From Clitopilus passeckerianus (lineage: Eukaryota > Basidiomycota > Agaricomycetes > Agaricales > Entolomataceae): 64,000 nt of DNA. A model generated the notes under the pieces. That model was given only the letters and a program-made list of their open reading frames with translations, was not told the origin of the DNA and ran no database searches. Position 1 is the stretch's first letter. Every line of letters starts with the position of its first letter. The DNA lies in contig CALYLX010000142.1 in the NCBI GenBank assembly GCA_944990035.1, positions 124,001-188,000 on the forward strand, read 5' to 3'. The translations under genes and the position numbers were made by a program. Below are positions 12,686 through 49,111 of the stretch, piece after piece.

Positions 12686-12898
12686 ATGCACGTTCTACGC
12701 TTGATACTCCCCATGCTCTTTACCTTGGCCTCCGCCTCGGTCATAGCAAGAGAGGAAGCCGCCAGCGTCTGCGGGTGTACCGCACTGAAGAAATGTTTCT
12801 GCCCTCTTTTCATCCCCGTCTGCCCGAAAGGCCAGGCCTTGGCGGTCACCTATACCCCACCGTGTTGCTGCCCCAGCTACAAATGTGTCAAAGTGTGA
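12686..12898 (+). CDS. Small secreted nine-cysteine protein, copy 1 (70 aa)
   Basis: A single coding exon of 70 residues. Residues 1 to about 20 form a hydrophobic signal peptide (LRLILPMLFTLASASV). The mature part has the family pattern: CGC, five residues, CFC, six residues, C, thirteen residues, CCC, four residues, C, ending VKV. The ATG is immediately preceded by ATAG, which looks like a splice acceptor, as in the other copies; a 5' UTR intron is inferred. It is probably secreted and disulfide-bonded, with one unpaired cysteine if monomeric. Its closest relatives in the window are at 43.2 and 48.9 kb, on the other strand. It is convergent with the secreted granulin-like gene at 13.3-13.8 kb. 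I do not recognise a named family, so the function is unknown. Confidence 0.8.
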   Translation: MHVLRLILPMLFTLASASVIAREEAASVCGCTALKKCFCPLFIPVCPKGQALAVTYTPPCCCPSYKCVKV

Positions 12899-13256
12899 TA
12901 GTTCGCGCCATGAGCTGACAACTTTGGAAGAAACCCAAAAAGGCTTTCAAAGGTCACAAGGAATCGTACGAAATTGGATTCATCGAATAAATAGGCATTA
13001 GTCGATTTTGAAATTCAAATCAGGATTATCATTCCGTCATTCCGTCATGCCTGTCGTGGTGGGCATGCGCCAGGTGCAAATCCTCTTCGTTATCCGAATC
13101 GTCACCACTAGCAGTGGACGAAGTAATTAAGTGGACGAAGTGATTATTGATCAATTGCGCTCCACTACATGACACTCTTCCAATACAGAGAGGCTTCAAA
13201 CGACAGATTTCCATGCAATCACTGAGACGCATTCTTCAGTCCTCTCATTCTCCTCC

Positions 13257-13787
13257 TCAGAACTTGCATCCCGTAGACGAACATGCTATTCCAGGTGCTA
13301 CCAAGAATCCGCGTTAGAGTTTAGCATTGACGATCAGTCACCACCGAAGAAACACGTACGACAGCACCACTTCTTCCCAGAGCATTTATGATCGCCTTTG
13401 AAGGCGCATCCCGTGGCGGGCTTATAACACTTCTTTCCGTTAGGGCAACATCCGATTGAATATCCATCGGTTACGCAGTATTGGCTGTTGGGGCAGCATC
13501 TATTGTCTATAGATACGGAAGGGCAATGGGGTTAGAACCATGTTATCTAGCGATCACCATGGTGCAAGGAAGACAAACTCACAGCCGCACGAATGGTTTC
13601 CCTTAGCACACGCAGCTGCCGCGGCAAATTTGTTGGTAGAGGATGGGTTGAGGAGGCCTTCAAGCCTAGCATCGCTCGGAGCCTCGTCACCCTCAAGCAC
13701 GTACGGTAGGTCAGGGTACAACGATGCCGAGAGGGCAGGAAGCAAGACGGCGGAGGCCACAAAGAATGCCTTAAGTGAGAAATGCAT
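13257..13787 (-). CDS. Secreted cysteine-rich protein with granulin-like motifs (130 aa)
   Basis: Three exons (13583-13787, 13506-13360, 13297-13257) join in frame with GT-AG introns of 76 and 62 nt. The protein starts with a signal peptide (FFVASAVLLPALSAS), followed by a roughly 45-residue acidic propeptide-like stretch. The cysteine-rich part contains CCPNSQYC, CCPNGKKC and CCPPGIAC at regular spacing, as in granulin/epithelin-type or related CCPxGxxC modules, and ends CSSTGCKF. The last exon is needed to complete the third module. Without that splice the second exon would read through to a stop after FFGGD, so that is an alternative end. It is likely secreted or cell-wall associated; the precise function is unknown. 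It is convergent with the nine-cysteine peptide gene at 12.7 kb. Confidence 0.7.
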
Positions 13788-15700
13788 TGCTTGTCAGTTG
13801 GGAGGCAACAAAAGAGCGAGCTGGGCTGAGTGGATGGGAACTTGAAGGCGAGGGTGGCGAGGCTTTTATTCGTCGACTCCGAGCGCTTGAGAACGCTGTC
13901 TTGGCGACAAGTCAGGCTCGATGCCGGTCATATACCCCCTGGTTGGAGCTCAACGTTTTTTGCCAAGTTCATGTCAGTGGGTGTCGAAGGCCTTCAGAGC
14001 ATCCATGAAAGGTCAAAGACAACACGAGGAGAGCGCACAGTGCACACCTATCAGATGGCTGTCAAATGTAAAACAGGTGCCTTGATGATTACCAGATACT
14101 TTGACAGAGTGCGAGCTTAGTTTTGGGGTACTGAATGTTCATCGGGCTAGAAACGATACACAGAAGGAGATGAAGCATACAGGTGGGAGACCTACTCGGG
14201 AGAACGATGAAAGATTGACGCTCATAAAAACCGCCGTTGCCTTCGGAGCTCAAGCAACTATGACACAGCCTGGAACGCCAGACTTAGACAATGTGAATAA
14301 TCGAAGAGTGCATACGAAGAGAGTAGGGTGAAAACTAATGTATGCAGAGCCCGACCTCCCGTTTCAGTGAAAGTGAACCGACATAGGAGTGGGCTGACAA
14401 GATGACGGTGTAAGGACATACGCCGTAACATATGGGAAAGCGGATGGTACCGTATCTTCTATTCGACATATAGGGGTGTAGAGCGAAGTCTTTGGAAAAT
14501 GTGTCCGAGAGTCTGTGCATATTAGTCAACAGCGAGGGCGACAACTTCATATTCGAGTTGTTCATCGGTGGGGCGAGGATTCTGCTCCTTTGTCGGCGAA
14601 CATGTGATTAAACCGTCTTGGCATTGGTAGCAAACTCGAGAATCCCAGTGCCCTCAGCGACTCAATCGAATTTTGGCTTGGTTATGAGGTCTTCCCGTCG
14701 GCAAGATACCTCGTCCGTTATGACCGCGCGTACCGTCATTAATTGTTGATCGGTTGAACTGACACGACACAGTGGCGTCGAGTCGAGTCGAGAGTCAGAA
14801 GGATGCGGAACGGAAGAGTCAAGGAACCTTGAAGCTGAACTTCACCCTGTTGTGATCATCTCGGCTTGTTCGCCGAGCGCCGCACCTTGCATCACAAGAA
14901 TGCTTGCGAGTAGCAGGTTCGACGGCGGCTTCATGGCCTTGGTACTTTTAATGAGATAATTCTACACTATTTCAGTGGGACCTGTGACTCTTTGTTTATC
15001 ATGCTGCTGCTAAGCCGTAGGGGTCCCTATGCGATGTGTCCATAAGGTGAATTGCCCACGAAGAAAAATGACTCCATGAGAAGCGTGATTCGGTGAGCTG
15101 GCCAATGACGATTTACACTCGTTATACTAGCTCAGGGGCTTGCTTAGTACCAACTTGGTATATCTTTGCTACTCTGTACCGCTATAACACAATGATTACA
15201 ACTGGAACGGGAGCCTACTAACCTTTAGGAAATAGCGAGGTGCTGTCTACAAAATGTGATTAGAAGTATTAACTTCAACTATAACTTGAACGACTAAGAG
15301 GAAAACTCCGGACTCGTAATCCTCCATGCGCAGCACTGGGCACATCCACAAGTAGTTGTGTATTGTGCGTCTAAAGGGAAAATCTTCATACGACGCCCCA
15401 AGTTCGGGCCGGATTTCAAAGGAACGCCTCAATTAGTCTAAAGGGCAGCTTGGGTTGATCTAATAGGAGCCCAGGAGGAGCCCGACGATTTGGGTGAGTA
15501 TTGGGCACGAGGCACCAGATGTCAGTCAAGGGCGGCACCCTCAAGCTGTGGTTTATTCCGAATCAACGGCCCCAAAAGTCTTAATATTCATTTAAGCCTC
15601 CCTTCCACAAGGTGGGAGGCTAATTCAAGAACGACTTCACCCTGTCAACCTTTTTACGCAGAATTCATTTGAGCAGGTGTAATCCATCCGGCCTTCGTAG
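13788..15700. other. Intergenic, no gene supported
   Basis: Short ORFs only, none with domain-like content. A small GTCGAGTCGAGTCGAGAG tandem run occurs near 14,775. The start of this span should hold the promoter of the minus-strand gene ending at 13,787. Confidence 0.4.
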
Positions 15701-15924
15701 ACACCGATCGTTCGAGGCTTGACAGATCGAGCATGCTGTCAAAATCCCGTATATTCCGAGCTATGGAACTCGTGCTCAGGCTGTGACCCCTCTACCGTCG
15801 CTTTTCTTTCCAAGTCCTTCTCAATTAAAAATAATCAATCTCGATCGGCCTCAGACCCTCTCGACCCTCTCTCCGAACATCCAAATTTCCAGTCTCTTTC
15901 CCCATACAATTATCACGACGACAG

Positions 15925-16799
15925 GATGGAAATCACGTCCAATGTCCAAGCTTACTTTGCTCAATGCTGGCCCTTCGTCTCCAAAAAACATAAACAACGT
16001 CTCATGAGAATGGCTTGTGAAGACTGGTCAACATTGGTAGTTGGCAGTGCATTGAATGATCGTGCCGAGGTCTTCGCACTCTTAGTCTCGTGCATGACGT
16101 TGTTCAATGACATGCCAATGTCCGTCGGAGGAAGTCGTATGTCGTCTTCTTTCGTCTTCCGTCTACCTTGTCAAAGGGTTCTCACTTAGGTGTCGTACCA
16201 CATTTTCAGAGTCATCGTATGGCCGAGAGAATGATTTGTATCTTGCGAAGATACACCATTCCCAAGGACCTAAAGAATGTCGAGCAGTGGATTTGAGCCT
16301 ACCTAGGGTATAGGTCCAACGACAACGGTGCTTGGTACGTGGTCCCCACATCTACTATTGTATGGAATCAGAGGCTAACGCCAAATTTCTTGCCTATAGG
16401 TTTTCCACATATGCCCAGCTCTGTGCGCGGGAGGTCGCAACCCCACCGCCATGACAATAGCGGTATATTCTTTCCGACAAGGATACACGCGCCTTGTTCA
16501 CGACCTACTAGCACTTGAACGAGATTACTCTTATTAACGATCCGTACTCCTATCGCAAAGAAAGAAGCCAGCAAGAGAAGTTTCAACATCTAGGCGACAA
16601 CGACAAGGGCAGAAATTGTTATTCCATATGTAACGCTCTCTTCGTCCTTACAGAATATCATCATATGGAGGCATGTGATGCTGTGGAGGAAGTCAAACGA
16701 CTTATCCACTACTTTGGGAGATTTAAAACAAATCGAGGGGGAAATATTCGGGTTCGGCGGAGGAATCGGAAAAGATCGAGAAGCTTGGGTGTGGGATGA
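15925..16799 (+). pseudogene. Terpene synthase relic, trichodiene-synthase-like NSE motif
   Basis: The first exon from ATG 15925 reads MEITSNVQAYFAQCWPFV and continues through a helical stretch ending near LFNDMPMS, which may be a degraded Asp-rich motif. After a plausible intron (about 16138-16210) the reading SHRMAERMICILRRY runs into a TGA near 16,292. Sequence continues in the same frame to WFSTYAQLCAREVA. A frame change follows, then INDPYSYRKE at about 16,531-16,560, which fits the class I NSE triad NDxxSxxxE. The tail VLTEYHHMEACDAVEEVKRL fits the helix that follows in this family. At least one nonsense codon and one frame change make it a likely pseudogene. Assignment to the TRI5-like clade rests on the NSE motif and its context only; a diverged basidiomycete sesquiterpene synthase is the alternative. 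Confidence 0.5.
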
Positions 16800-16917
16800 T
16801 CAATTTCATGCATGGAAATGCATCTTGGTCTAGCTATACGCCGAGATACAATACAGGATTTAGCGCAGAGTCGTGATTAACGTAGTCAATGCTTGGATAG
16901 ATGCAATCTTATGTTCT

Positions 16918-18555
16918 TCAGTCATCTGCGACCTTAATAACCACGGTTCCATGGTTACGTCCCTCAAGCATTCTCTGCATCGCCGAAGAGACTTTCTCCA
17001 AGCCGACATGCACCTCTTCGATAGCTTTGAGTTCCCCAGTAGCGAGTTTCTGGGGAATAGTGGCGTAGAACTCGTCACCCCACTTCTTATCAAGGTAGGC
17101 GACGACAAAGCCGAAGATCGAGATTTGTTTGGTGACAATGTTCATGAGGTTCTAAGTTTCACCAAATAACAAGCTACGTTAGCGCAAGGTCAAAGGCGTC
17201 AAGCGGAAGAAGAATTGACTTACGTTAACTGGCTTAGCCTGGCCACCGTAGCCTAGAAGATGATTATGATGAGATCGTGAAGGACAAGCCGATGTTTGAC
17301 TCACCAGAGATCATACCACATTCCTTTGTGGTTCAGCACGATCAGATGAGAAGAGGAGAGATGAAGAAATGTACTCACGATGAACGTCGCCCCCGTTTTG
17401 GCAGCATCTAGAGCGACCTCGAGCATCTCGCCTCCGACATTATCCCAGTAGCTGAGGCCTCATGTCATTATGAGCGTTGGGATGAATGATACAACACGTA
17501 CATATCAATTGGTCGTTCCTTTGATAGAACCTCAGTAGCACTCGTCGTCTTATAGTTGAAAGGGACATCTGCGCCAATGGATCTCATGAACTCGACCTTC
17601 TCGTCGGTGCCAGCACAAGCGATGACCCTTAGTCCGTCTGCTTTTGCCAACTGGACGACCAGGCTATAGGTTGCCCATCAATGTCGTGTTGTGAAGAGGG
17701 GCATGTTCTAGGCACTCACGATCCTACAGCACCAGCCCCTGTCGTGATGAATATGGTGTCGCCCTTGGTTTTGGTCATTAGCTGGAGGAAATTGGACGCT
17801 ATTAATTGCTAGATACCTTCTTGGCTTTTGAGAATTCGCGCCATCCGTAATACGCAGTCTGACCTGATGAAGTCGTGGGTGAGATATCAATCACATCTGA
17901 TTTAGAACAATGAAACCCACCAGGCATTCCACCAGTACCCAAGAAGTACGACCAAGGCACTTTCCCGTTCACATTGTCGATCACCTTGAGCCCAGCCAAC
18001 GAGGGAATAACGCTATACTCCTGATGGGCTAGGGCATCATCAGCGGTCAGCGGTCAAACACTGGGCCTACGAAAATACACTCACGAAGGAAGCCAAAAAC
18101 GTGATCGCCGACCGTTACTTCTTTGCTCTCAGAGCGGAGGACAACACCAACACTATGGGTGCTTATTCTGTGGAGATTGCGTCAGATTAGTCCTAGGGTA
18201 CTGATAATGCAGACCTACGGATGGCCGAGAGGATAGGCAGGCTATGGGAATTAGTTCACAACCGGGGTTCGAAAATGGCCGGGCTCACCACAGCCGTATT
18301 TCCATCCGCAGGCCGCATCATCATCCGATTGTAAAGGTGAAGAGACACAGCAATCGTCTTGACAAGGAACCCTCCGTTGAGAGCAACTTTCTCCACGTCA
18401 ATAGTATCCGTGTCGTCGTATCCGATCGTGTCTTCGCTCGTCACATAGCCTATTGTTTCGATGAGTTCCAATGAAATGGTGGCACATTACACCGAGATTG
18501 CCTGACCTTTAGGATAGGCGCTGAGAATCGCTTTGGCGTTTCGGATTAAAGGCAT
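16918..18555 (-). CDS. NADPH-dependent alkenal/quinone reductase-like protein (MDR superfamily)
   Basis: A many-exon gene. Joining exons from ATG 18555 gives MPLIRNAKAILSAYPKGYVT, then TIDVEKVALNGGFLVKTI, a short exon with YPLGHP, then VGVVLRSESKEVTVGDHVFG, SVIPSLAGLKVIDNVNGKVP, MPGQTAYYGW, the Rossmann-fold motif TTGAGAVGS, and AKADGLRVIACAGTDEKVEF. The C-terminal exon ends VVIKVADD before TGA 16918. Order and motifs match the zinc-free medium-chain reductases related to prostaglandin/leukotriene B4 reductase and plant alkenal double-bond reductases, about 340-350 residues. These reduce activated C=C bonds of enals or enones with NADPH in the cytosol. All introns tested are 45-75 nt with good splice sites, and I saw no disabling change. 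The broken terpene synthase immediately upstream in the window suggests a possible former terpenoid setting, but that link is only inference. Confidence 0.8.
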
Positions 18556-19436
18556 TGTAGATATGCACCCCCAAGGTTCTCAAAAGTTGGGTTGTTGACT
18601 GCTTTCTGAGGATCGCAGAATGAGTGGCTTTATAGCAAAGGTCGTCATCGGAACCTTCCCGCCCGTTCGCCAGCGGAAACCGAATACAGAGGTGGAGTAA
18701 ACACCGGTGAAACGGGGAATGAGCCAAAAACAAGCAACGAATCCCCTGGAGTCCAGCAGGCTCGTTATTCGATCAGCATGCTTGACAAGAATAGAAAGGC
18801 GCAGCTGCTTATGCTGACATGAGCCATCTTTTGTTTTGCATTTGGACTCGGATGTTGGTCCGCATGAGCTTGATTTGCTAGATCTAGAGCTGGTAGCAAG
18901 TCTTCGGTTGCACTTCCGGCTTCATTCAACTGCGATTACGAGAGTACTACTGAGTAGCCTACCCTAAACTTTGATGGCTGTGGGTCGGGAGGTCACCATC
19001 ATCCTCCATCAGACAGTTGCCGATTCCGATTCCATACTCTATTTCTTGCCAACCGCTCTCAACCTCCAATCATGCTTGATAGCTGTACAACATTCTTCGA
19101 AACCTTCCAGGCATTGGTCGTTTCCGCATTTGAAGTTCTCCGCTACACTTGCGACATGGCGAAATGAGATGTCATAATAGAAGGTTAATCTCCGTTGTGT
19201 CAACTTAAGACTTGAGACTTGAGTGAAGTGTGAAATGCAGCTACTCGATACCTGCCGTTTACTGACCTTGGACTCTGACACCCACTATGGGCGTACGCCG
19301 TTCCCCGCAAAAACATCGCTCTGGTAATTGTTGCCCTCCTCAAAACTAAACCGTTCTAAAGGGCGGTGGGAAACTACGTACTCGCGCCTTCTGTGATGAA
19401 GAAGTGTAAAGCAGTAGACATTCGAGGGGAAAATTT

Positions 19437-21370: not shown

Positions 21371-21374
21371 GTAA

Positions 21375-29196: not shown

Positions 29197-29436
29197 TTAG
29201 AGCTTGACACACTTGTAGCTGGCACAGCAGCAGGGCGGTTTGTAGGTAACGGATGTACCATATCCTTTCTTGCACTTTGGAGGTCTGGTATCGCAGTGGA
29301 AGCATGGTGGTACCTTGGTGCATCCACATGGTGTCGTGACGGCTCGGGCTTCCAATGACTCGGGCGACTCAGAAGTTGTAGCGACCACAGAGGCGGTGAC
29401 CACAAGAAGTGACAATGCAACCCGGGCTATATACAT
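29197..29436 (-). CDS. Small secreted nine-cysteine protein, copy 2 (79 aa)
   Basis: A single coding exon. A signal peptide (ARVALSLLVVTASVVA) is followed by a slightly longer spacer than in other copies (TTSESPESLEARAV). The Cys block is CGC, five residues, CFHC, six residues, C, thirteen residues, CCC, four residues, C, ending VKL. It differs from its relatives by one extra residue between the third and fourth cysteines and by a basic KCKKGYG loop. The ATG follows CTACAG, an acceptor-like site. A CGTATTTAAGG word lies at 29650-29661, 225 bp upstream. It is the most diverged intact member and stands alone, outside the duplicated block. Function unknown. Confidence 0.75.
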   Translation of the reverse strand: MYIARVALSLLVVTASVVATTSESPESLEARAVTTPCGCTKVPPCFHCDTRPPKCKKGYGTSVTYKPPCCCASYKCVKL

Positions 29437-30832
29437 CTGTAGGGAGGAGGTCAGTGCGCCGTATTATGTACAGAGCAGAGAATGTCGACGACGAACGTTG
29501 TATGACTTGGATGGTGGGTCGGATAATATGTTTGGAGGCCGACTAAAGGTGGAAAATTGTCAGAGAATGAGATATTGTCTTGAGCCAGAAACTTACTTCT
29601 GATATTGTGGGGGAGGTTCCGGGGTTACTATCCTCGACTCGACGCATTGCCCTTAAATACGTTATATGTCATTTATTTTCATGTCCATAAGAAGATGCAT
29701 TAAAATATTCCAAGGGAGCCTAATAACTATGCCAAGACACGGTGGGACGGGAGAGGACGACAAAGCCTTGCTTCGGTTCTACGCGGAATGGCTTCAAGCT
29801 CGCAAACTACCGCATACAACTAAGTTTGTCCTGTGCGGTTGCGTGTAGCCACGAAATCGTATCTCCTCAGACTCAGACACTCGATCATACCATCCAAGTC
29901 TTCGGTCTTCAGGCACATTTTTACCGTGAGGACACCTGTTGCACGTTTCAGGACAATAGGAAGATCCCAAAGACATGAATTTTGAATTCCCTCTGCTGCT
30001 TATGCTATGTTTGAGATTCAAAATATGACGGGAATAAGCCACGTTCCACCCGCGCTCTGATTCCGAATTTGCCATGCATATACTATATGACTTGAATGCG
30101 GTGTGGTGAATAAATATCGAAAGTAGATGGTACGTAATTCTCTGCGACATGATTGCAGCTGCTCATACCCCCGGCACACTATACATACCGGCTGCACTTT
30201 GTTAGGAGCCTGAGTTTGACTCGACACCCATCTTAGATCCAACATGAGTCCCGATTCATTCAAGGAGGGTCCGGATATACCGATGTTGTTCATCAACTAA
30301 GCACACAGAAGTTGAGAAAGCGACCAAAGTCGGATAGGAGTAAGTGGGGCAAGTTGGGAAGTACAACAGGACAGGATATTCCAGTAGGTATGTAGATAGG
30401 TACAAGAAATCGGGTACTAGATACATCGGGATGGACGAGTGATAAACGCTAAAGCGGTCAATCTCAGAAGGTGGTAAGGTATACACAGTGAACAAGGAAA
30501 AAGTGGGAATACGAATCTGCGGTATAAGCAAGATGTCAGCAAAATGGTAGGTCGTGATGAAGGGCAAGGGATCAGTCCAGGAGTCCATAAGTAGGTGACT
30601 AGGCATCCATCCATCCATTCGGGGAGTTCGATACAGGAAAAGGAAGTCTAGTCGTGATCGAGGTCGTAGTTAGTCGGCACCATTAGAGGAGGGTTTTAAA
30701 TCTGTCATCTGGGAGTCTTCATTCGTGTTCATGAGTAGTGGTGGATATAGATCCAGTCGTCGTCAGATTACGACGGGGCAACAAGTGCGTAAGGTCGTTC
30801 GAAAATGGCCACGGACATCACTAGAGTAGATG
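29437..30832. other. Intergenic, no gene supported
   Basis: Holds the promoter of the peptide gene at its left end (TATTTAAGG at 29,650-29,661). The rest has only short overlapping frames. The part next to 30,832 probably contains the SHO1 3' UTR. Confidence 0.4.
29650..29661 (-). promoter_or_regulatory. CGTATTTAAGG core promoter word upstream of peptide copy 2
   Basis: On the minus strand this reads CGTATTTAAGGG, 225 bp before ATG 29436. The same word occurs at matching distances upstream of the peptide genes at 43.2 and 48.9 kb, and in altered form at 46.7 kb. It is probably a TATA element with the start site and a 5' UTR intron between it and the ATG. Confidence 0.5.
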
Positions 30833-34946: not shown

Positions 34947-37900
34947 TTAAGGTAAGGGAACCTTTGAGATATCGAGGAGGAGAACGCGGCCATCCCGGCA
35001 GCCGACAGCGACAGACGTGCCAGTTGGGTCTATTGAGAACTCGTAGACTTGCAGGTGTGGAGGGAACCAGCAGAATGGAACAATGACAGGCTCTCCGTCC
35101 GCCGGTACTTTGATGTATACGAGGCCGTGCAGGGAAGGCTTCTCTCGCTCCCCGAGTACGACGATGCGCAAGGGATAATCAGGCGTGACTGGGTGGGTGA
35201 AAAGAGGGTCAACAACATCATGGGTGGTGACAATTGGGACCGAAGATGTGGAGCGTGGGGTGCTCGGGAGGAACATTAAAGATGACATAGATTTGAAATG
35301 TTTCTCGAGAGAAATAATGCGAACGGTGTTGCTGGCGATCCGCAAGTAAATGGAGGCACTTCCATAGTACTTGTTTATTGATGCTAGTGTTGAGCCACCG
35401 GGGGAGAATGCAACGGCATGCATTACCTGATCTGAGTCGATGGTGGTGATATGAGACCCGGACCGTCCATCCCAAACCCTGAATGTCTCGTCAAACGACG
35501 CAGACACAAGTCTTAAGCCATCAGGAGAGAATGTAATTGCGGTGACCAAGGATGAATGGCCCGTGAGGGTGTTGATATGAGCTCCTGCCTTTCCGTCCCA
35601 CAAACGGACGTCGAAATCTCCACCTGCTGAGGCAAGCCTTAAACCGTTGAGAGAGAAAGCAATGGCCGTGACGTCGAAAGGATGACCAGTAAGAGTACAA
35701 ATATGGTCACCCGTCTTTCCGTCCCACAACCGCATCGTCACGTCGTCGTTCGTCGCATCGTCGAACCCTGAAGCAAGCCTTAAGCCATCAGGAGAAAATG
35801 CAACGGCGTTCACATTGTAAGAAGTTGGATGCCCGTGGAGCGTGGCGATATGGGCTCCTGTCCTTCCATCCCACAGTCGTAGGTGTTATCTTTCGATCCG
35901 GAAACGAACATTGAACCGTCAGGTGAGTGTGCCATGACCGTTACCGTCTCGGAATGTTTATGAATGGCATCAAGTTCAGGGCTGTCCGGGTTTGCATTCT
36001 GTGGATGGATGGTATCGTTTGAAGGAGGAAATGCAGCGCTTGCCGAATTTGAAGGCAACCTGGCAATCCCGGCATGGCTTTCGAGACTGTCTGCCTCGAC
36101 CTCCCAAAGACGGACTGTGTGATCAAACGATGCTGATGCAAGTCTTGACCCATCGGTGGAGAATGCGACAGCAAGGACCCCATCGGAATGGCCGTTGAAA
36201 GAGAGTATAGGGGCACCTGACGTTGCGTCCCACAAGCGGACTGTGTTATCCCGCGACCCCGACGCGAGTCTTCCACCATCTGAAGAAAATGCGACAGAGT
36301 TGACCCCATTGGAATGGCCTTCCAGAGTGATGAGATGGGCACCCATTGCTACATCCCACATTCGGATTGTGTGATCATTAGATGCTGATGCAAGCCTCAA
36401 CCCATCGGGGGAGAATGCAACATCCTTAACGCCATCGGAATGGCCTTCAAATGTGACCATATGAGAACCGGTCGGTGCATCCCACAGACGCACTGTGTGA
36501 TCCCAGGATGCTGACGCGAGTGTTGAACCATCCGGGGAGAATGTGACAGAGTTTATTGAATCGGAATGGCCTTTAATAGTTATGAGATGAGCACCCGTCG
36601 CTCCATCCCATAAACGAATGGAGTTGTCTTCATATCCTGATGCAAATCTTGAAACGTCTGGAGAGAACGCAACAGAACTGACCCCGTTGGAATGGCTTTT
36701 GGAAGTGATGATTCTGATGAGATGAACCCCTGTCGTTACATCCCACAGACGAATTGTGCAGTCGATGGATGCCAATGCAAGTCTCAATCCATCGGGGCAG
36801 AATGCAAGTCTCAACCCATTGGGGGAGAATACACTACTGGGGGAGAGTGCAACATTCTTAACACCATCGGAATGGCCTTCAAATGTGGCGATATGAGCAC
36901 CTGTCTGTCCATCCCACAGACAAACTGTTCGATCAAAGGACGCTGAGGCAAGTACGCCACCATCGGGAGAGAAAGCGACAGCATGAACCACATGCTCATG
37001 CCCATTTAGAGTGACAAGCGCACCCAGGTCCCATTCTTCTTTAATTCCACTGAGGACTTTGACGCCTTCCGCTCTATAGGTCCCATGCAGAACGGTTTGC
37101 CCAGGGACGAACGGGAGTGCTGACCGATAAATATGCGTTGGGGCCAATGTGAGGACTTCGCTGTTCTGTAGCAGGAATCGACGGGTGTCCGACAACATCA
37201 TGTGGAGTTTGCTTCGTGCTGACGGACTTTGAAGATTTTCAATCAAACGTTGACCCATTAGCCATTAAACAAACTTGTATGGAGCGGCCACTTCCGTTCC
37301 GGCATGGCATAAACTCGGATGGAGGCTGCCGCTATCACCAGCGTTAGACCCTTTAGGGATCGGTTCATTGGCTGGATTTTGGGGGTTAGACACATAGATG
37401 CAGGTTCTGGTCTAGTAATCATCCTCGGCAATTCAATATTTGGCTAGGACATGTCACATTTCGTATGAAGACCGGCATGCCGCCAGCTGGATATCCAGCG
37501 TGACAAGCAGATCGGCATTCTTCTGTGGAGGTATATACCATCAGGGTTAACATCACCCTCCTGGCATTGTTTTGGCAACCTACAATTACAGGCAAGGTAG
37601 TAAACATATATCTATGAGCAGGCGAGCCCACTGCACGACAGGGTAATAAACCGCGTATCCCCAAAAAGCATACTTAACAGGATGCAGTTTATGCGACAAC
37701 GAACGCCAACTGAAGTCAAGCACGTTGGTACGGGTTGACATGACGCCAATAGCTCGCGGATCCATCCACAGAGGTATAGTAAAACGAGCACTGGCCCATA
37801 ATGAACCGTGGACACCCCATTCTGGATATCTGCCACGCAGATTGGGGCGGAGGTACTGCCTGAGCCTCTCAATAAACACCGGGTATCGAGAGGGTCGTGC

Positions 37901-40483
37901 TTGATCATCAGATGATGGAACAAACCAGTTTAAGTAGCGATCTGGGTCAGGGAAGAAGTCCCAAGACGCCAGATCGCAGGACTTCCAATGGAAATGGCCG
38001 TCTTCTGAAGGGGATGGGAAAGAACGACGTGAGGGCGAGTGTAGCGAGTACCAAATTACAATGCGTTGTACTCTGTCAGGAGGTAAGGCACAGGTTTAAT
38101 CGAAGAGACAATACCCACCAAAGGGGAGTCTCGTATGGCTTGAATACGCTCCGAAACTTGGAAGTCATCCGTAGTTGACGAAAGGAATGGATTGAGGTGA
38201 TGCAATGATTGATGATCACAGGAAAATTACTGTGTATAGATAAAAAATTAGCTAAGGATCAAGAAATCGACTTAACCTAGTGATGTATTCACACGAGACT
38301 TAAGCACCCATAAAAGGCAAATTATGAGTTTATGGACCAATCGAAATTAGAGAAATACCAATTACAAACAAGCAAAAATATTGTAAAGTTTTGGAACTTT
38401 GGACGCTGGAAAGAACTCAATGGAGTATCCACTCCATCCTCGTAACCAGTAGGCCAATAAGTCTACTCACAATTGCATCCGGCGCCACATCAAACATGTT
38501 ATGTGCACGGTCGATGTGGTCAAGAATGCTCATGACCTCAAGCCATGCCATCATATGGGTAAACGTTCACTTGTGAATATCCTCCTGAAGCTCGCTATCC
38601 AGCTCTCCGGCTTCGTTAAGATGCGAGGCCCAATGAGATGCCGCGTAGACGAGCTCTCCGCTCAGGGATGGATCCCGTAGGCTTGCAATCTCTTTCTTAT
38701 CCAGAAACCGTTCTTCTGAAGTAAGATTTGCCACGTTATATTTCAAATTCTCGTCCATTATACGGAAGCACGCTATGGCGAGTCGTCGATGATGCACTTG
38801 CGTATCAATCAAAAAGTTTAAAACATGGGTCGATGTGGCTGCTGGCAAATTCTCCAGAGCACGTTCGATGCGGTCCACATTAGTGATAAAATCGGGGAAT
38901 GACTTGTGATGGATGCGGAATATCATATCTGGACCGGTCGGGGCGACGAGGGAATGCAGATGAAGGAGGCCATTCGTAATATCCCTTCGGTGCAAGCTAA
39001 GGAGATGCGCCAAAGCCTCGCAAGGTAGAGGGTTATGCAAGGTAAGAATAGCGCCAATGATGGTTTGGTATCGATTAAACCATTCGACGATTTCGTCTAG
39101 GTCGTCGGGAGCAGCATTGGTAATGATGCGGATATAGAATTTATCCATAACATCTGTCCGGTTCGAGCCAGAGAAATCTGTAAGTGATACACCTTCGAGT
39201 ATGCGGGAGAGACGGTTTCCGGGGTTAGCTACCTTGGAATCAAGAATGAACTTTGTAGCTGTCGAAGCGACGATGAAGAGCGTGCCACAAATGCCGCACA
39301 GCATCCACATTTCATTAGCGCTAGGCTGCCATGGGGGTAGATCATCTGGAAATATATCTTGAACGCGGTCCACCGATAGAGAGTGTTCTAGAAACAACTT
39401 GATATCGGAGTGCACGATCTCATCATCAATCTCGTGTAGATGGAATAGCTCGTGATTTGTGTCCTTATTCCAGATCCGTCGAAGATGTTCCTCGGGAGGA
39501 GCCGTAATAAAGAATCGAAGTTGAGGTATAACGTGGTGAGCGAGGAGTGTCGGGGGGAGGGGGGGTACGTGCCTCCTCGTCTCTGCACTCGTCGAGAGCG
39601 TCTATGACTACCAGGATCAGTTGGTCCACCGGAATGAATGAAAGGCGAAGAGGTTCAAGAATGAGGAGGGTAAATTGCTGATTGATAGTCTTCTGTACGG
39701 CATCTGGATCCTGTCCGAGAGCTTTATCAAGTTGCTGAGCAAAGAGTGCATCATGACGTGCGAGCTGATAAGCAATGGTAGGGAAGAAATGTTTCGCTGT
39801 CTTCCGGTCTTCCTCATCCATCGTAAAGAAGAAGCTTGCACCAAGACTTCCATCTTTGAAGGCACGCTCTGCCACAGTCTGTGCGATGGTTGATTTTCCG
39901 ATGCCGGCGACTCCATCCAGAACATATATGGGTGCTTGGCTGCCATTGCCAGTGCTCCATTTCTCGATATCTCCAAGGAGTTGTACAAAAGTATTTGGGA
40001 AGCATGTGGCTCGCGGATCCGCTGTATAAGAGTCGTGTGCTGCATTGACCGGGTTGAGGATGCTGTTGAGCTTTTGAAGCTTCTCCACCCCAGCGAGATA
40101 TCACAAGAGAGGCGAATAGATGACGCCCTCACCGGTGTCGTTGTATTCTGGTTGACTTCTACAACCGTATTGATGTCCCCCCCCTGCGTTGTAAATGTTA
40201 TTCTCAATGGAGGCGATCACTTGGGGTTGTGGGATGAATTCTGCAGTGCAAGAGGCTGAATTTCCCGGCCACTCGGCTCATTAACATTCGTCAGAGACTT
40301 GGAAGATTTGGTAATATGAGAAACTGAGCCTCCTCTCGCGGGGGATTGCGTCTCTGGGTTTGTCAGTGAGAAGGGCGACATGGTGCGTCTATCCGGAGCC
40401 TCCACTCTGATCGAGGCGGATGCAGAGGAATCTGGGTTATCCTTATACTTCTTCTCTTTCAAATGGGAGAGAAGCTTGCGCAT
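34947..40483 (-). pseudogene. NACHT-WD40 (NLR-like STAND) pseudogene
   Basis: This has the same layout as the intact gene at 52.9-57.5 kb: basic N-terminus; linker with NNIYNAGGDINTVVEVNQN; NACHT with P-loop GVAGIGKST (about 39,900) and Walker B LILVVIDALDE; a helical region; and about a dozen WD40 repeats ending VLLLDIS. Lesions relative to the intact copy: a frame change between the N-terminal frame and the GGD linker (about 40,235-40,260); a frame slip in the C-rich run at 39,548-39,566; TGG to TGA at about 38,567; a 5-nt loss just after it (about 38,548); and a 1-nt loss in a WD40 blade (about 35,878-35,885). The intron between NACHT and WD40 parts is about 1.2 kb, against 53 nt in the twin. 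Intact STAND proteins of this type are thought to act in non-self recognition and programmed cell death; this copy should be dead. Confidence 0.85.
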
Positions 40484-40810: not shown

Positions 40811-40835
40811 TCGGCTCGGGATTCGGAAATGCAAT
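40811..40835 (+). repeat. Partial match to the B-box repeat
   Basis: CGGCTCGGGATTCGGAAATG here matches the 5' part of the B-box repeats at 44.3 and 49.85 kb. The B box itself is missing, so this is a fragment or a chance partial match. Confidence 0.3.
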
Positions 40836-41600: not shown

Positions 41601-41649
41601 GCTCGCATTTACTTGCAGGTCTATGCCCAAATCATGTCCAAATCCTCCA

Positions 41650-42150: not shown

Positions 42151-42398
42151 CTCATGCCGTTCGAAGAGGTGGAAAAGGCGAACAAAGCTGCCCTGTTACC
42201 CACATTGATGAACCTCCTGTCAACTTGGACCATCATTGAAGCTGAGTGCTGAGCGGCCGCAAAGCACGAGATACAGCGGGTCCTTTTCCTGTGATTGATA
42301 TCCTGGATTTTCAGTTGTTCTTGAAGAGATTGTCGAAGTTGTACCACGGAGTGCCTCAGTTGAACGAGGGTGGTGTCACAGGAATTGAGCGTTGAGGC
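42151..42398 (-). repeat. Inverted repeat arm A (about 248 bp)
   Basis: Its reverse complement matches 44,462-44,710 with only scattered differences; a core of about 190 bp is almost identical. On the minus strand it is open as VQLRHSVVQLRQSLQEQLKI. The two arms flank about 2 kb that holds peptide copies 3 and 4. Confidence 0.8.
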
Positions 42399-42615
42399 TG
42401 ATACGTAGTTTCCACAGATGGACGTTGAATATGCACACAAAACCGAACTTGACACCTATCCGCGGCAGTGGCGTATTTGCGGTATGTATGGCATTCATGT
42501 AAAGTTGTTGGATTTCAAATTTAAGAAATGTCTCTCCGCTCAGCGGACGCAATGGATACCGTCGTATTAAAAACTGTTTCGCCTCTACATAGAGTCTGCG
42601 ACTCTCCTTAAGCAA

Positions 42616-42790
42616 TCATACTGTGACACACGAATAACTAGGGCAACAGCATGTAGGGCTATAGGCGACAGCCCGTGCAGTGCCTTCCTCACAAAGGGGG
42701 ACGGAGAAAGGGCAAATACACGTCTTCAGCGCTGTACACCCGCAATCAGTGGGGGGTGGCCCCTGCCTCTGTAGACTCGTGACCCGCCCC
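42616..42790 (-). pseudogene. Nine-cysteine peptide, copy 3, 5'-truncated
   Basis: The cysteine block is complete (CGC, CIC, C, CCC, C, ending VTV at 42616), but there is no signal peptide and no ATG in frame before it. The upstream sequence runs straight into a remnant of a terpene synthase 3' end on the other strand (42,798-42,846). The 3' flank matches that of copy 5 at 46.3 kb. This is a copy cut by a duplication breakpoint. It could be expressed only from a non-AUG start or a spliced leader that I cannot see. Confidence 0.7.
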
Positions 42791-42797
42791 ACAAACT

Positions 42798-42846
42798 GTT
42801 GAGCCTCGAGCACCGTCTGTAGATAACGTTGACCTCACAAAGTAGA
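42798..42846 (+). pseudogene. Terpene synthase 3'-terminal remnant
   Basis: GAGCCTCGAGCACCGTCTGT and the bases following align with the last 45 nt of the intact synthase at 48,467-48,511 at roughly 80 percent identity, without its reading frame. The downstream spacer (to about 43,020) also resembles the spacer after the intact gene. It marks the left edge of the duplicated block. Confidence 0.65.
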
Positions 42847-43244
42847 TCCTTAGGTGCCTTTCTATTATCAAAAAGAGTACACAATCTGCCCGAATTGCTT
42901 TCTCTCGGAAATTTCCCCAAATACATTGATTATAAGTCGGCAATTTCTGTCATGACCGGTAATTTCTCGGGTTCGTTCGATCTTTTTCGACGCGCCACAT
43001 CTGCTCCCCAGGCCTAAGCTTCACGGCTTGATAGCGACAACCCATTGACGTTCTTGATCTCAAGTTCGTGTAAGTGCGAAGACCGGAACCTGATGGCACG
43101 AGCCAGATACGCAATTGATGGCCTGACTGTCATGAACGGAAGCCCTTCACCGAACCTGAACCCCAACTTCACCAGATCTGCTTGGCGGATATAATTCATT
43201 CAGAGTTGCTACCATGTCTCTACTCACACCAGTGAAACCTCAAA

Positions 43245-43469
43245 CTATTCAACCTTAATGCACGTGTAGCTAGGGCAGCAGCACGGAGGGCTATACGTAA
43301 CCGACAATGCAGTCCCCTTTTCGCAGACTGGGAAGCCGGCGGGGCACCCACATACCTTGAGCGGTGTGCATCCACAGACGCTGGCTGTCGTTTCCTTTGC
43401 GACGAGTACTGAGGCGGAAGTAGAGGCCACGGCGAAGATTGCGGGAACTATCACGCTCAGAAATTTCAT
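43245..43469 (-). CDS. Small secreted nine-cysteine protein, copy 4 (74 aa)
   Basis: A single coding exon. A signal peptide (KFLSVIVPAIFAVASTSASV) is followed by LVAKETTAS and the Cys block: CGC, five residues, CGC, six residues, C, thirteen residues, CCC, four residues, C, ending IKVE. Nearly every mature residue is shared with copy 6 at 48.9 kb. The ATG follows TTCACAG directly, and a possible donor lies near 43,530, so a 5' UTR intron is likely. A TATTTAAAGG word is 235-245 bp upstream (43703-43714). It sits in the block duplicated at 48.5-51.4 kb and is read toward the synthase remnant. Function unknown; likely extracellular. Confidence 0.85.
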   Translation of the reverse strand: MKFLSVIVPAIFAVASTSASVLVAKETTASVCGCTPLKVCGCPAGFPVCEKGTALSVTYSPPCCCPSYTCIKVE

Positions 43470-43702
43470 CTGTGAACGTAGTATGACTATTCAAGCTCTC
43501 AGAGATGATTGGCAGAGTTCGTAAACTTGCCTTGGATTATTTCGACGTAGCACGATCTACTAGAAGAGTTTTGGTGCGTATAATTGGAGTGCGGCTAGGC
43601 TACGGTAGGGGAGGTCAGCAATGCGGTCGTTCAGTCAACGAAAATATAATACCAAGAGAACGTGTTTTCGAAGGGAGTGTAGAGTCCTTCGCGAGATACA
43701 GC

Positions 43703-43714
43703 CCTTTAAATACG
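43703..43714 (-). promoter_or_regulatory. CGTATTTAAAGG core promoter word upstream of peptide copy 4
   Basis: CGTATTTAAAGG on the minus strand, 245 bp before ATG 43469. It is identical to the word at 49338-49349 upstream of copy 6. Confidence 0.55.
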
Positions 43715-44287
43715 AAAACTCTTGCACCTAAAATCGCACGTGAGGTGTATAACAAACCTGGGCTTCCTAGGCATGCCCTTCGGCCCGAGAGTGCTAAGAT
43801 GGCTGGCGGTAATGGGATTGGCTACTGATAGTCATCCACTGAACGTCGCTCAGGTGAGCCTAGGATGGGCAGTTGAAGTCTGATTTGAACTCGGGGAAGT
43901 TCACACCTCTTACCCCAGATAAACTATTGAATTGAAAGCCGCCGAAATGTCGCGTGAACGACGGAGAGCTTTCGAGCATCGCTACAGTCTTGGCTGGACC
44001 TTAGACGGTGGGCACCTACAATGCATGGCTGTAGTTCTTCTTCAGCCCTTCCAGTTTTGGTTGATAATATATATTCGATTGGCCATCTCAGGCAAGCACG
44101 GGCAAGGTGTTGTTAGGCAGTAAGAAAACCGCCTTGGCTCGGAATTGTGTGGAAACGGGCTGGGAATACCAAACCTGAAAGAATCAGACCCCGGGGTCAG
44201 CAGCCCCAGATACGTCTGATTTCGACCCAAAGGACTTTTCTCTGTTCCTGACACCCCCTTCAATTGTAAGTTTCCTCAATTTCGGGG

Positions 44288-44358
44288 GTCGAAATCGGAT
44301 CGGGATTCGGAAATGATTCGGAAGCGCCTGGGTTCGAACCTTGTTGGGGCCACCTAGT
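44288..44358 (+). repeat. B-box short repeat, copy 2
   Basis: Contains GTCGAAATCGGATCGGGATT, then GGTTCGAACC (44331-44340, a perfect B box) and GGCCACC. It matches 49,845-49,914 closely and 6,494-6,563 in inverse orientation. It is part of the larger block duplication. Confidence 0.65.
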
Positions 44359-44461
44359 TTCATTCTCACCCATTCAAGTTACGTCAAGGCTACCACAATG
44401 ATACTCAAATGCCACTCGCATCCGTCCTGGGCCGGAAGCTGGCCTTAAATGCGTGCTTCCA

Positions 44462-44710
44462 GCCTCAACGTTCAATATCTGCGACACCAGCCTCATTCAA
44501 TTGAGGCACTCCGTGGTCCAACTTCGACAATCTCTTCAAGAACAGCTGAAAATCCAGGATATCAATCACAGGAAAAGGACCCGCTGTATCTCGTGCTTTG
44601 CGGCCGCTCAGCACTCAGCTTCAATGATGGTCCAAGTTGACAGGAGGTTCATCAATGTGGGTAACAGGACAGCTTTGTTCGCCTTTTCCACCTCTTCGGA
44701 CGGCATGAGG
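44462..44710 (+). repeat. Inverted repeat arm B (about 249 bp)
   Basis: Near-identical to the reverse complement of 42,151-42,398. It lies between the B-box repeat and unit X copy 2, which are neighbours in the other block copy (49.9-50.0 kb) without this arm. This arm is therefore an insertion into the block. Confidence 0.8.
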
Positions 44711-44999
44711 CTCATGGCTATTCTGTTCATAGGACATTCATCAATGACGACCGCTGGCAGCAATCGGCGCCTACATCTGACGAGTTCTTCAAACCACTGT
44801 AATAACATGAAAACCTGAACTTGGAGGCTCTCCATAGACTGCAGACGAACGGCTGATCCCCCACCGTTTGACCTTACACTGCCATGCACCTTTCATCCGA
44901 ACAATTCGACATCCACTGGATAGCTTTGCTCTAGGTAAGCCATTATTATCACTTTCTACGTCGTTGTCTTTCAGTTCCCTTCCTTCCTTCAGATAAGAA

Positions 45000-46060
45000 A
45001 CTGAACACGCTCCACCCACAGGTTTATTATCAGGCTTACCCTTGCTACTCGCGGTTGCCGCTGCACAAGACGTACCGGGCGTGCACGTCGCCTTTACCTG
45101 GATCATCGAATGTTCGCATAACCGGCCTCAGGCATATTCAGCCCTCCGTTCAGAATCACCTCGCTGAAATTGCTGAAATCCCTGCATCTGCCCGATATCG
45201 TCCCCAACAATACCCTTGGTCCGTCCCTAATGCAGATGCCCGCTGTCCCACTGGCCTCCACGTCCCATACCCCCGCCCTATTCGTCTTGCCTCCATGTCA
45301 CCCCCCGATGAATCATCAATCAGCCCCAGAGGTGTAATTGGTTCTGTTCGGCCTAGTGCTGGCGGGGTGAGCTCGGCCCGCTTCTATCCTCCTAGGTTCA
45401 CACAAACGGAGATCAGGCAAACTTCTACAGATGCTATCGTCAATGCTCGTGTGGTGTCCAATTGCCTCGGAGGGACTATTCGGCTATCGGGCGTTGACTT
45501 GGGCCAAGCCAAGTTCATCACCATGAAGCTGGAAGTACCAACCCCAATCTACTTGCTAGGGAGTCGTCATTTAGCTTTCGTTCTCGGATTCTTCCACGCC
45601 TGGGACACGCCAAGTTACACGTCGATGGAGGATGGAGCTTTCAGAACAGCCGTCAGTGTGCACATCTGGGACCGTATCGACCCAATGCTTGGCCCTCCTC
45701 GCCCCTCCGAGCTCCTTTGTTCCCTTCCCTCCCTACGACAACCCGAGCTAAACCTGGTTGGAGGCGAACTTCGTAAGGGCGCCGGTCATCTTCCAATCCA
45801 AGTCACGTCATGCCTAGTTCGTGGATACCTGTGCCAGTGGCTCGTTTGAGTGGCGACGCAGCCGTAACTGTTGGACGCTACTCCCATGGTGGACCCATTT
45901 TGCAAACATCCTTATACGAGGCTGAAAGCTCTGCGTCAGGGCGTGTTGTCGTGCCAGAGGCCAACATGCAGGACTCCCCTCACACAGTGCCAATCCTGCA
46001 TTTCCTGCCATCAGCGACCGTTGGTAGGAGGACAATTTGCCCTATCAAACCCCCTGATTT
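45000..46060 (+). repeat. Repeat unit X, copy 2
   Basis: The longest open stretch is 45,055-45,849 (264 codons), but the conserved reading changes frame against copy 3 (50.1-51.5 kb). Matching pieces include 45,690-45,800 with 51,130-51,225, and 45,850-45,930 with 51,250-51,330. THAVPILH/HTVPILH encoding stretches lie at 45,985 and 51,383. It is probably a decayed multi-exon gene; the product is not recognised. I do not call the 264-codon frame a gene. Confidence 0.5.
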
Positions 46061-46279
46061 CTCTCATGATGCGGAATCTCCGGAGATGGATGTTAGGTGT
46101 GCCAACCACATATCCGCTGCGATAGTAATGTATCTACAACATGTACTACTTTTCTGAATAAATGTTGGATTTTCAAAATCAACAAACACATATATGCATG
46201 CTGGAGACATTCCCTAGTATCATCGTATTGAAAGTCCCTTTCGTCTCTACTTAGAGACTCCCCGCAATCAATTACACTG

Positions 46280-46480
46280 ACACACGAATAGGTAGGGCAA
46301 CAGCATGGATGGCTATCGGCGGCCGCCAACGCTGTCCCTTCTTCGCAAACCGGCATGTAGAGAGGGCAAGCACAGTCTCAGTGCCGTACACCCACAAGCG
46401 TCGACGGCTCCCTTCCTGGCTGTGAGTGAGGCGGGAACCACGATGAAGAATCCGGGAAGTACTAGAAGTAGCATCTGCAT
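46280..46480 (-). pseudogene. Nine-cysteine peptide, copy 5, frameshifted
   Basis: Starting at ATG 46480, the signal peptide (MLLLVLPGFFIVVPASL) and the first CGCTALR are in one frame. After AGACTGTG (about 46,375) the remaining CACP, C, CCC and C lie in another frame, ending VSVI. Keeping the five-residue spacing of the family implies a 2-nt loss. The 3' flank matches copy 3 (42.5-42.6 kb). A CGTACTTAAAGG word at 46700-46711 corresponds to the promoter word of the family, with one change in the TATA part. Confidence 0.75.
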
Positions 46481-46699
46481 CTCTAGATATGGTATGAATA
46501 AACAGGTGTAGTGGAGTGGGTGTCGTGAACTCACATTCGATTTGATAACTCCAGAGCAGTATAATTCGTTGATAGTGTGAACCTGGGGTATAAAACAGGT
46601 GGATGTGCTCAGAAACGTAGTCGTTCAAGCTAGTTCAAGATAATTGAATAGAAAGTGCTCTCGAGTTCGGGGGTGCAGAACCCTTCGCTCAACTCGCTC

Positions 46700-46711
46700 C
46701 CTTTAAGTACG
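46700..46711 (-). promoter_or_regulatory. Altered promoter word upstream of broken peptide copy 5
   Basis: CGTACTTAAAGG on the minus strand, against CGTATTTAAAGG at copies 4 and 6, 231 bp before the proposed ATG. Confidence 0.4.
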
Positions 46712-47190
46712 AATTTCTTCCTTCTATGTGAGTTTGTAAGGGGTCCCAAAACCCTCCGATTCAATGAAACCAATACGACTCTCATTAAGATGCCGATACT
46801 TAGGACAACTTCTGGTGGTAATAATATTGGCTCCTGACAGTCAGCTACTAAACAGCGCTCAGGTCACGCGGTGTCGGTGAATATGTACTTTGGGACCGTG
46901 CTATATCATGCTGTTATGATATGATTCTTACCCGCTAGTTTCTCTACAGAAATAATCAACTCACGAGCAGTGTGCCTCCTGGACTCTTTGGCTGCTTGAG
47001 CTAGATGAGTGGGAAGCGCCAGTGCATTATCTTTTCATTTCCGAACCGGGGATAACGAGTGTTAATTCCACCGAGGCGCTGTGTGGCAGCTCAGATTTTC
47101 CACACTAGTCTTCAGACGCTCATGCCATTCCAGCTGTCGAGCACACCACAAGCACTTTCAATCAACCCGTGATCAAGGGCTAAACTCTAT

Positions 47191-47197
47191 TATAAAG
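47191..47197 (+). promoter_or_regulatory. TATA box of the sesquiterpene synthase
   Basis: TATAAAG, about 40 nt before ATG 47236, in an otherwise mixed-composition leader. Confidence 0.5.
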
Positions 47198-47235
47198 TAG
47201 GTGGTAATTTCTTTTGCATTCCCCATTCAAGCGCC

Positions 47236-48511
47236 ATGTCCCAAGATTCTCCTGCCACATTTCGTATCCCCGATCTCGAAACAATCTTCTCCACCTTCCC
47301 GGATGAAGGAACAAGCCCATACTACGACGACGTTCTGCCTGAGGCGAGAGCATGGATCAAGCAATATCAGGAGCACGTCTACGGCCCCAAGATGACAGAG
47401 TTCATGGATCGCTGCAAGATCGAGCTGATAACGTACTACATCTATCCTTTGGCAAGTAGGTCTTGCATCCGAGCAATGATGGACTTGGTGAGAGAGCGTA
47501 TTTATGCAAAGGCCTTGCCCACATTTATCACTGAGCTGGCAGGACAACCTATTCTGGCTTACCGATGAAGCTACTGACGTCCAATCCGGTCAAAAAGCCC
47601 GGGAGACAGCGGAGGTAGTCAAAAAGGCACTTACCAATCCTGACTTCAAAGACGGCTCCTGGCTCTGTGCAATGCTCCAAGAGTAGGTGGACCGACATCC
47701 CTCTTTAAAGATCAACTCATCAATTCAATGTCTGCGTTCTCGTCAGCTTTCGGAACCGACACCTTGACGGTATCAGGACTCCATCATTTATCGCACGATT
47801 CATCGACCACTTCTGCATCTACATCGATAGGATAGCCGATGAGGCCGTCTACAGGGAGAAACAGAAGGTGCTCGACATACCATCGTACATGGAATTTCGT
47901 CGCGAAGCAGCTGCCGTACGGATAGTTATGGACACAGTGGAGTATTGCGCCGAACTCGAGCTCCCTCAGACTGTCCTCGATGACCCTGTCTTCCAGGTGG
48001 CGTATAATGCTGCACTCGATCTGGCTTTTGGGACAAATGTGAGCACTCATCGGATCTAAGTCTGTAGACTAAACCTAATGACCATGCATTTATTCGTAGG
48101 ACATCCATTCGTACAATATGGAACAATCCAAGGGTCATGACGGCGCAAATGTCATCACGGTTATTATGAATGAGCGGGGCCTCGATGTTCAAGGCGCCAT
48201 GGACTATTTCGGCGGATACTGTGAAGCCCTTACTGCGCAGTTTCTCGATGCGAAGCGTAAACTCGAGAAGAGGGCAGGTCGGGAGTGGAAAGATGCCGTA
48301 CTGATTCTTGATGGGTATAGTCTTTTCCTCACCGGGCAAGTCAAGTGCGTCTTCATCCCGCGTAGCCGTAACGTTGTATTCTGACTCTAAGGAAAATAGA
48401 TGGGGCTTTGCGACGGAAAGGTATTTCGGTAAGAAGAATATGGAGGTACAGAAGACTAGGGTTGTAGAGCTTCGGGCACCGTTTGTAGATCACGTTAATC
48501 TCAAAGACTAG
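47236..48511 (+). CDS. Sesquiterpene synthase, class I (346 aa)
   Basis: Five exons (47236-47487, 47543-47682, 47747-48038, 48100-48344, 48400-48511) join exactly in frame. The metal-binding motif DEATD lies at about residues 92-96, where basidiomycete synthases have D(D/E/N)xxD. The NSE triad NDIHSYNME spans residues 228-236, with its N split from D by the third intron. The diphosphate-sensing Arg-Tyr pair is R317-Y318. Length fits the family (330-350). The enzyme should ionise farnesyl diphosphate with three Mg2+ and cyclise it; the product cannot be read from sequence. A relic of a second copy lies at 1.0-2.3 kb and only the tail of a third at 42.8 kb. The next gene downstream, convergent, is peptide copy 6. 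No P450 or other tailoring gene is recognised nearby. Confidence 0.9.
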
Positions 48512-48892
48512 GTTCTTATAGAAATGGCTGTCTATATCAAAGAGTGTAGAACAAAGCCTCAAAAAGTTCTATTGGGAATACGCTGTGTATAAGTCGGAGA
48601 TTTCTACTCATTGGTACTTTATCGGGTTCATTCGAACTCTTCTGATGCGCAGGTGTTCACGAATGGGTGGCGACAACACATTGGCCTTCTTGGCTCCGAT
48701 GGAATCAGTCAGGTACGCAATCGACAGGTTGATTCTCATGAACGGAAGCTGAACTCGAATTCAAAATCCAAAAGATGCCTATCTTCTGCTTGGCGGCGGA
48801 TACAATTCGTTCAGATAATCAGATAATTGTTCCATAAGAAACCTATCGGGTATCTCCTACTACGTCTCTACCCACACCAGTTAACCTTTGGA

Positions 48893-49111
48893 TTATTCAA
48901 CCTTAATGCATGTATAGCTCGGGCAGCAGCACGGAGGGCTATAAGTAACCGACAGCGCGGTTCCCTTTTCGCAAATTGGGATGCCGGCAGGGCAGAAGCA
49001 TGCCTTTAGCGCTGTGCATCCACACACGCTACTGTCCTCCCGCGCGACGAGTACCGAGGCGGAAGCCATGGCGAAGAAGAGTGCGGGAACTATTATGCTC
49101 AGAAACTTCAT
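48893..49111 (-). CDS. Small secreted nine-cysteine protein, copy 6 (72 aa)
   Basis: A single coding exon. The signal peptide is KFLSIIVPALFFAMASASV. The mature part begins LVAREDSSV, followed by CGC, CFC, C, CCC and C at family spacing and the end IKVE. It is closest to copy 4 at 43.2 kb, including flanks, so the two arose by block duplication. The ATG follows TTCACAG directly, with a donor-like site near 49,170. The promoter word CGTATTTAAAGG is at 49338-49349. The stop lies about 380 bp beyond the stop of the convergent sesquiterpene synthase. Likely extracellular; function unknown. Confidence 0.85.
   Translation of the reverse strand: MKFLSIIVPALFFAMASASVLVAREDSSVCGCTALKACFCPAGIPICEKGTALSVTYSPPCCCPSYTCIKVE

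Follow-up and report, generated by a model that had tools for sequence, protein, structure and literature searches.

The window, a stretch of 64,000 nucleotides (G000:C139:124001-188000) within a genome of 64.8 Mb in 160 contigs, was found to contain six copies of a short gene for a cysteine-rich peptide of the secreted type. These six were all the matches above the inclusion threshold when the window was searched in six frames with a profile, and each lies where the sequence-only reading had placed it, four being intact and two broken as it had counted. The four intact genes are uninterrupted coding frames of 70, 79, 74, and 72 amino acids. They are listed below with the broken copies, the predicted leader introns, and the TATA-like elements.

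12447..12453, plus strand: TATA-like element TATTTAG of A1, 239 nt before the ATG
12629..12685, plus strand: 5' leader intron of A1 predicted from the sequence, GCAAGT...TAG directly before the ATG
12686..12895, plus strand: A1, intact nine-cysteine peptide gene, 70 aa, stop at 12896-12898; allele on C59, dN/dS 0.11
29200..29436, minus strand: A2, intact nine-cysteine peptide gene, 79 aa, stop at 29197-29199
29437..29496, minus strand: predicted 5' leader intron of A2, GTTCGT...CTGAC...CAG, outside the stricter donor rule
29653..29659, minus strand: TATA-like element TATTTAA of A2
42616..42768, minus strand: A3, 5'-truncated copy with all nine cysteines and the stop, mature part in frame
43248..43469, minus strand: A4, intact nine-cysteine peptide gene, 74 aa, stop at 43245-43247
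43470..43530, minus strand: predicted 5' leader intron of A4, GC-AG
43706..43712, minus strand: TATA-like element TATTTAA of A4
46274..46480, minus strand: frameshifted, fast-diverged 46.3 kb copy, end approximate
48896..49111, minus strand: A6, intact nine-cysteine peptide gene, 72 aa, stop at 48893-48895
49112..49169, minus strand: predicted 5' leader intron of A6, GC-AG
49341..49347, minus strand: TATA-like element TATTTAA of A6

The core cysteine spacing was encountered five times in the six frames of the window and in none of 60 dinucleotide shuffles, and C-x13-CCC-x4-C alone was encountered six times, compared to none in a further 60 shuffles. A2 is the C-x2-C variant, with a net charge of +7 in its cysteine domain, and its allele on contig C59 encodes an identical protein with three synonymous differences. 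The 42.6 kb copy (A3) has lost its 5' half, including the start, the signal peptide, and the upstream region, and an intact copy is present on C59 (193.4 kb). A frameshift divides the 46.3 kb copy, whose start and signal peptide lie in a different frame from its C-terminal half, and the profile search recovered it as two pieces. The "V/I-K end" that had been ascribed to the copies proved to be a loose description, as two intact copies end in IKVE and one in VKL.

The sequence-only reading had taken these copies for a six-copy, nine-cysteine family. The family is real, of the secreted type, and rich in cysteine, but the window copies proved to be a branch within a larger family, spread over the genome and characterized by eight cysteines. 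One or more intact copies are present at no fewer than 17 loci (A1-A6, B1-B2, C1-C4, D1-D3, E, and F), and these fall into six groups over two divergent haplotypes. The relatives were gathered with seven protein queries against the whole genome, and the counts are lower bounds. The groups were located as follows.

Group A: the window, C139 and C59
Group B: C138:638-644 and C57:103-105 (kb)
Group C: C138:163-167, C57:412-416, and C53:17-21 (kb)
Group D: C82:14-16 and C83:23-25 (kb)
Group E: C156:842 and C96:438 (kb)
Group F: C100:3.6 and C126:0.2 (kb)

The analyzed set of 28 intact sequences includes alleles. Excluded from the counts were a degenerate copy at C138:638.0, weak matches on C54, C65, C88, C133, C142, and C152, and the second copies of C1-C3, which read alike on C57 and C53. 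C1-C3 are the same at C57:412-415 kb and C53:17-21 kb while the C138 copies differ, and the repeat is either an assembly duplicate or a third copy.

The spacing C-x5,6-C-x1,2-C-x5-7-C-x13-CCC-x4-C was observed in all 28 intact sequences, and all 28 have a hydrophobic N-terminal segment (2.10-3.25 for the best 11-residue mean on the Kyte-Doolittle scale). In a 20-sequence alignment, the invariant columns were Met1, the eight core cysteines, and one proline. Within the 13-residue loop, Gly occupies place 3 in 27 of 28 sequences, and Pro occupies place 12 in 26 and place 13 in all 28; the last loop has Tyr at its third place in 21 of 28. The nine-cysteine pattern described earlier stands for the window copies and does not extend to the wider family, where the ninth cysteine (the first of CGC) was found only in groups A and E, which together form one tree branch (support, 0.915). 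The resulting odd number of cysteines would predict a free or intermolecular thiol.

A 5' leader intron was predicted for most of the family. CAG or TAG stands directly before the ATG in 15 of 15 intact genes of groups A, B, and E, compared to 103 of 2356 ATGs in the window, and a fuller intron-like pattern was matched by 25 of the 28 intact sequences, compared to 288 of 2356 window ATGs; these contrasts overstate the evidence, since the sequences are related and not independent. The three misses were both A2 alleles and D2 on C82. The predicted donor in group A is the unusual GC in 8 of 10 sequences, and GT was found in A2 and in sister group E; judged by these donors, group A has likely switched to a GC-AG leader intron. 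TATTTA is common to the group A genes at about 216-244 nt upstream of the ATG.

Selection on a folded scaffold, which had previously been deduced from the spacing, was now measured. Nei-Gojobori counts pooled over 11 allele pairs gave a dS of 0.218, a dN of 0.054, and a dN/dS of 0.25 (bootstrap, 0.19-0.32; 0 of 500 at or above 1). This value lies far below 1 and is purifying selection. The pooled ratio was 0.21 for the mature part and 0.29 for the pre-part. Two exceptions to the trend were the mature part of pair C1 (1.11), where one allele has a different C terminus, and the pre-part of A6 (1.57, on six changes). The truncated 42.6 kb copy, compared over 42 codons with the intact relative closest to it, still had a dN/dS of 0.09, and the truncation therefore looks recent.

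The loss of copies recurs. For five loci or more (B1, C4, D1, F, and that of the 42.6 kb copy), an intact copy is paired with one that is broken on a single haplotype, and the 46.3 kb copy is an uncertain sixth. The B1 copy on C57 ends before the CCC, C4 on C57 is without an ATG start and has its last cysteine altered, D1 on C83 is also without an ATG start, and in F on C126 an array of TTTAGGG-type telomere repeats replaces the 5' half. The 42.6 kb copy starts where about 0.93 kb of C59 (193535-194469) is missing from C139, which accounts for the missing start and signal peptide. Since identity with C59 is only 73% over the remaining body of this copy, compared to 91% for the adjoining 2.1 kb, exchange between paralogues is also possible. 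An intact allele of the 46.3 kb copy was considered at C59:191.0 and was dropped, as the branch is long, the tree support is weak, and the haplotypes are rearranged there. A block of 1.1 kb lies between the peptide genes at window positions 47420-48514 and outside them at C59:189455-190535, from which it follows that the haplotypes are rearranged inside the cluster.

TTTAGGG-type arrays were observed at the starts of C82, C83, C100, and C126, which places groups D and F within 25 kb of a telomere. No telomere array was found at the start of C53 or the end of C57, near group C, and group A lies more than 130 kb from the start of its own contig. The repeat is of the plant type, and a search for four exact units in a row gave 540 overlapping matches genome-wide. 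The sequence before it at the contig starts (C82:1-600, C83:1-600, C100:1-600, and C126:1-60) is presumably untrimmed nanopore adapter and barcode.

The earlier statement that no named family fits was borne out in the collections searched. No convincing match was obtained in Pfam (28 of 28 intact sequences), in NCBIfam (20 of 28), or among PDB sequences, and in these three collections no profile match led to a characterized family. Matches to single members were taken as chance (Astro_capsid_N at E 0.0032, YjbE at E 0.01, DUF6893, MF_alpha_N, PSI_PSAK, proC, rad23, and PRK12516), as were eight PDB profile matches at E 0.2-0.85, each to a viral 2A protease or polyprotein along a stretch of about 25 residues. 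The 96 pattern matches in viral contigs included no relatives. In a protein database, a single sequence gave 1 candidate and a 20-row profile gave 3939 candidates, with no match from either; a control, a conserved-looking frame from the window, was likewise blank (nothing at E 0.001 in 7996 scored candidates), so these negatives say nothing about fungi. The control frame, which was without a Pfam match, is assumed by us to encode an SHO1-like SH3 protein. Within the titles and opening lines of abstracts in the open-licence literature, no family with such a cysteine pattern was found.

The predicted structure was a two-stranded hairpin over the C-terminal half, without a helix, as modeled by AlphaFold2 from five window sequences. 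Confidence was low in both runs (pLDDT, 74.6 and 72.0; pTM, 0.41 and 0.39), which used the same sequences with different first rows and are not independent, and three of the five models of the first run had a mean pLDDT below 55. Fold searches of the predicted model, including Foldseek and PDB folds, gave no significant match to a solved fold. Four of the eleven weak Foldseek matches were chains of CCN3, the C4 domain of VWF, and mucin-2 (two chains); this likeness to VWC-type domains was not accompanied by a significant structural or profile match, and a VWC-like fold was dropped. Copsin, a fungal defensin, is described in the text of one paper as a cysteine-rich antimicrobial peptide of a mushroom (PMC11532979). 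No defensin Pfam model matched any of the 28 sequences. A CS-alpha-beta defensin has a helix packed on a two-stranded sheet, and the low-confidence models here are hairpins without a helix.

We tentatively hypothesize, at somewhat less than an even chance, that the family consists of secreted, disulfide-locked defence peptides, probably directed against competing microbes. This reading was drawn from the anatomy of the peptides, their turnover, and the parallel with PRI3/cylindracin. In its favor stand the invariant cysteine spacing, the hydrophobic N termini, the low pooled dN/dS, the tandem groups, the one-haplotype losses, and the closeness of groups D and F to telomere repeats, and the family is best read as one that turns over fast. 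The predicted signal peptide would direct the protein out of the cell. Members of the window subfamily may then shed a short pro-piece that has Arg or Lys as its last residue, 7-9 positions ahead of the first core cysteine; a basic residue at this distance was present in 10 of 10 intact group A sequences. The eight cysteines would then form four disulfides around the C-terminal beta-hairpin bearing C-x13-CCC-x4-C. Variation among paralogues in the loops between the cysteines would alter charge and target, and the peptide would act on rivals by damaging their membranes or walls, in the manner of recombinant cylindracin. In the ninth-cysteine branch, the odd thiol could link two peptides into a covalent dimer. 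The broader proposal, in which a new disulfide fold (a triple-cysteine-locked hairpin) constitutes a mushroom peptide arsenal turning over fast between the nuclei of the dikaryon, with covalent dimers in the ninth-cysteine branch, is considered somewhat unlikely.

Several observations count against the defence reading. Most members of groups C and D, as well as F, lack the basic residue in front of the cysteine domain. The charge of the cysteine domain ranges from -2 to +7, with many members near neutral, unlike typical antimicrobials, which are cationic. No sign of positive selection was seen in the pooled counts of the 11 allele pairs, and the predicted fold is of low confidence and resembles no solved fold significantly.

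PRI3/cylindracin is probably the closest described parallel, the two being likened by description as the PRI3 alignment is given in a figure. According to the text of one paper, cylindracin is a secreted mushroom protein with an eight-cysteine domain and an intron in the 5' untranslated leader, and its recombinant domain has no free thiols and acts on filamentous fungi in a disulfide-dependent manner (PMC11532979). A second paper's text gives adjacent locus numbers for the PRI3 paralogues of C. aegerita (PMC8097960). The peptides studied here resemble it in being small and of the secreted type, in having eight cysteines (28 of 28), and in their tandem paralogues; a leader intron and, in group A, a pro-piece ending in a basic residue, both predicted here, would be further likenesses. 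They differ in length, the cysteine-rich domain of cylindracin being Gly rich and 59 residues long, compared to 41-51 residues here (the count starting three residues upstream of the first cysteine). As for agrocybin, the first cysteine-free stretch of its N terminus is, we presume, longer than the x5-6 loop here. A further difference may be the CCC, which does not occur in the text of the cylindracin paper, where the alignment is in a figure (PMC11532979). The same text describes a pro-region that ends at Arg-36 and is probably inert in the view of its authors, cleavage after Arg-36 that was not found in the pileus, and recombinant protein that did not inhibit the tested bacteria and yeasts (PMC11532979). 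The parallel is thus imperfect, and on the last two of these points the defence reading is not helped by it.

The same parallel bears on a fairly unlikely alternative, that these are the fungus' own surface or developmental proteins (of the wall, the aerial hyphae, or a fruiting-body coat), hydrophobin-like or forming a stage-specific coat. PRI3-type genes are described as developmentally regulated (PMC8097960), cylindracin is located in the outer cap layer in the text cited above (PMC11532979), and the C4-C5 loop here is often apolar (e.g., PAGIPI, PLFIPV, and PFSVPL). Hydrophobins (PF01185) are also small, secreted, cysteine rich, and multigene in basidiomycetes, as far as the cited text describes them (PMC3879219). 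However, the order of the cysteines is different: hydrophobins have two separated CC pairs, and here a single CCC is present with otherwise single cysteines. PF01185 matched 0 of 28 intact sequences at E values up to 1, and the only hydrophobin match listed for the genome, C156:1290090, is at none of the peptide loci. The earlier conclusion that the peptides are not hydrophobins is therefore upheld.

Effectors secreted to act on a living plant or animal host are an unlikely explanation. The peptides are small, of the secreted type, cysteine rich, multicopy, and partly subtelomeric, traits that are common in effector families, and the intact copies differ between haplotypes. Against this, the alleles are under purifying selection rather than diversification, and no Pfam effector family was matched. 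Secreted enzyme inhibitors are very unlikely: the C4-C5 loop (C-x5-7-C) is short, often proline rich, and different among paralogues, as a binding loop might be, but the resemblance is by eye only, and no inhibitor family or fold was matched. Most improbable are secreted metal-binding peptides chelating copper or zinc through the CxC and CCC motifs, because the long loops between the cysteines are fixed and carry conserved Pro and Gly, as in disulfide scaffolds, and signal peptides lead to oxidizing compartments.

Mushroom genomes contain many orphan small secreted proteins, few of which have a function assigned. The present family offers a strict scaffold and a sharp question, namely, why one branch has nine cysteines, and intact and broken forms of a single locus occur together in one individual. 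The mature domains are small (about 50 residues) and would be suited to antifungal and antibacterial testing; if active, they would stand next to cylindracin as another family of mushroom peptides, built on a distinct cysteine framework. Other secreted cysteine-rich proteins, from C. cinerea, are described in one paper's text as induced by bacteria or a nematode (PMC4704728).

Two regions encoding NACHT domains with WD40 repeats lie among and beside the peptide genes on the minus strand of the window (34950-40100 and 52896-56800) and are candidates for fungal NLR-like genes. On the plus strand at 7566-10632, DUF6729 frames adjoin a 3'-5' exonuclease match that is below its cutoff, and these frames possibly represent a mobile element.
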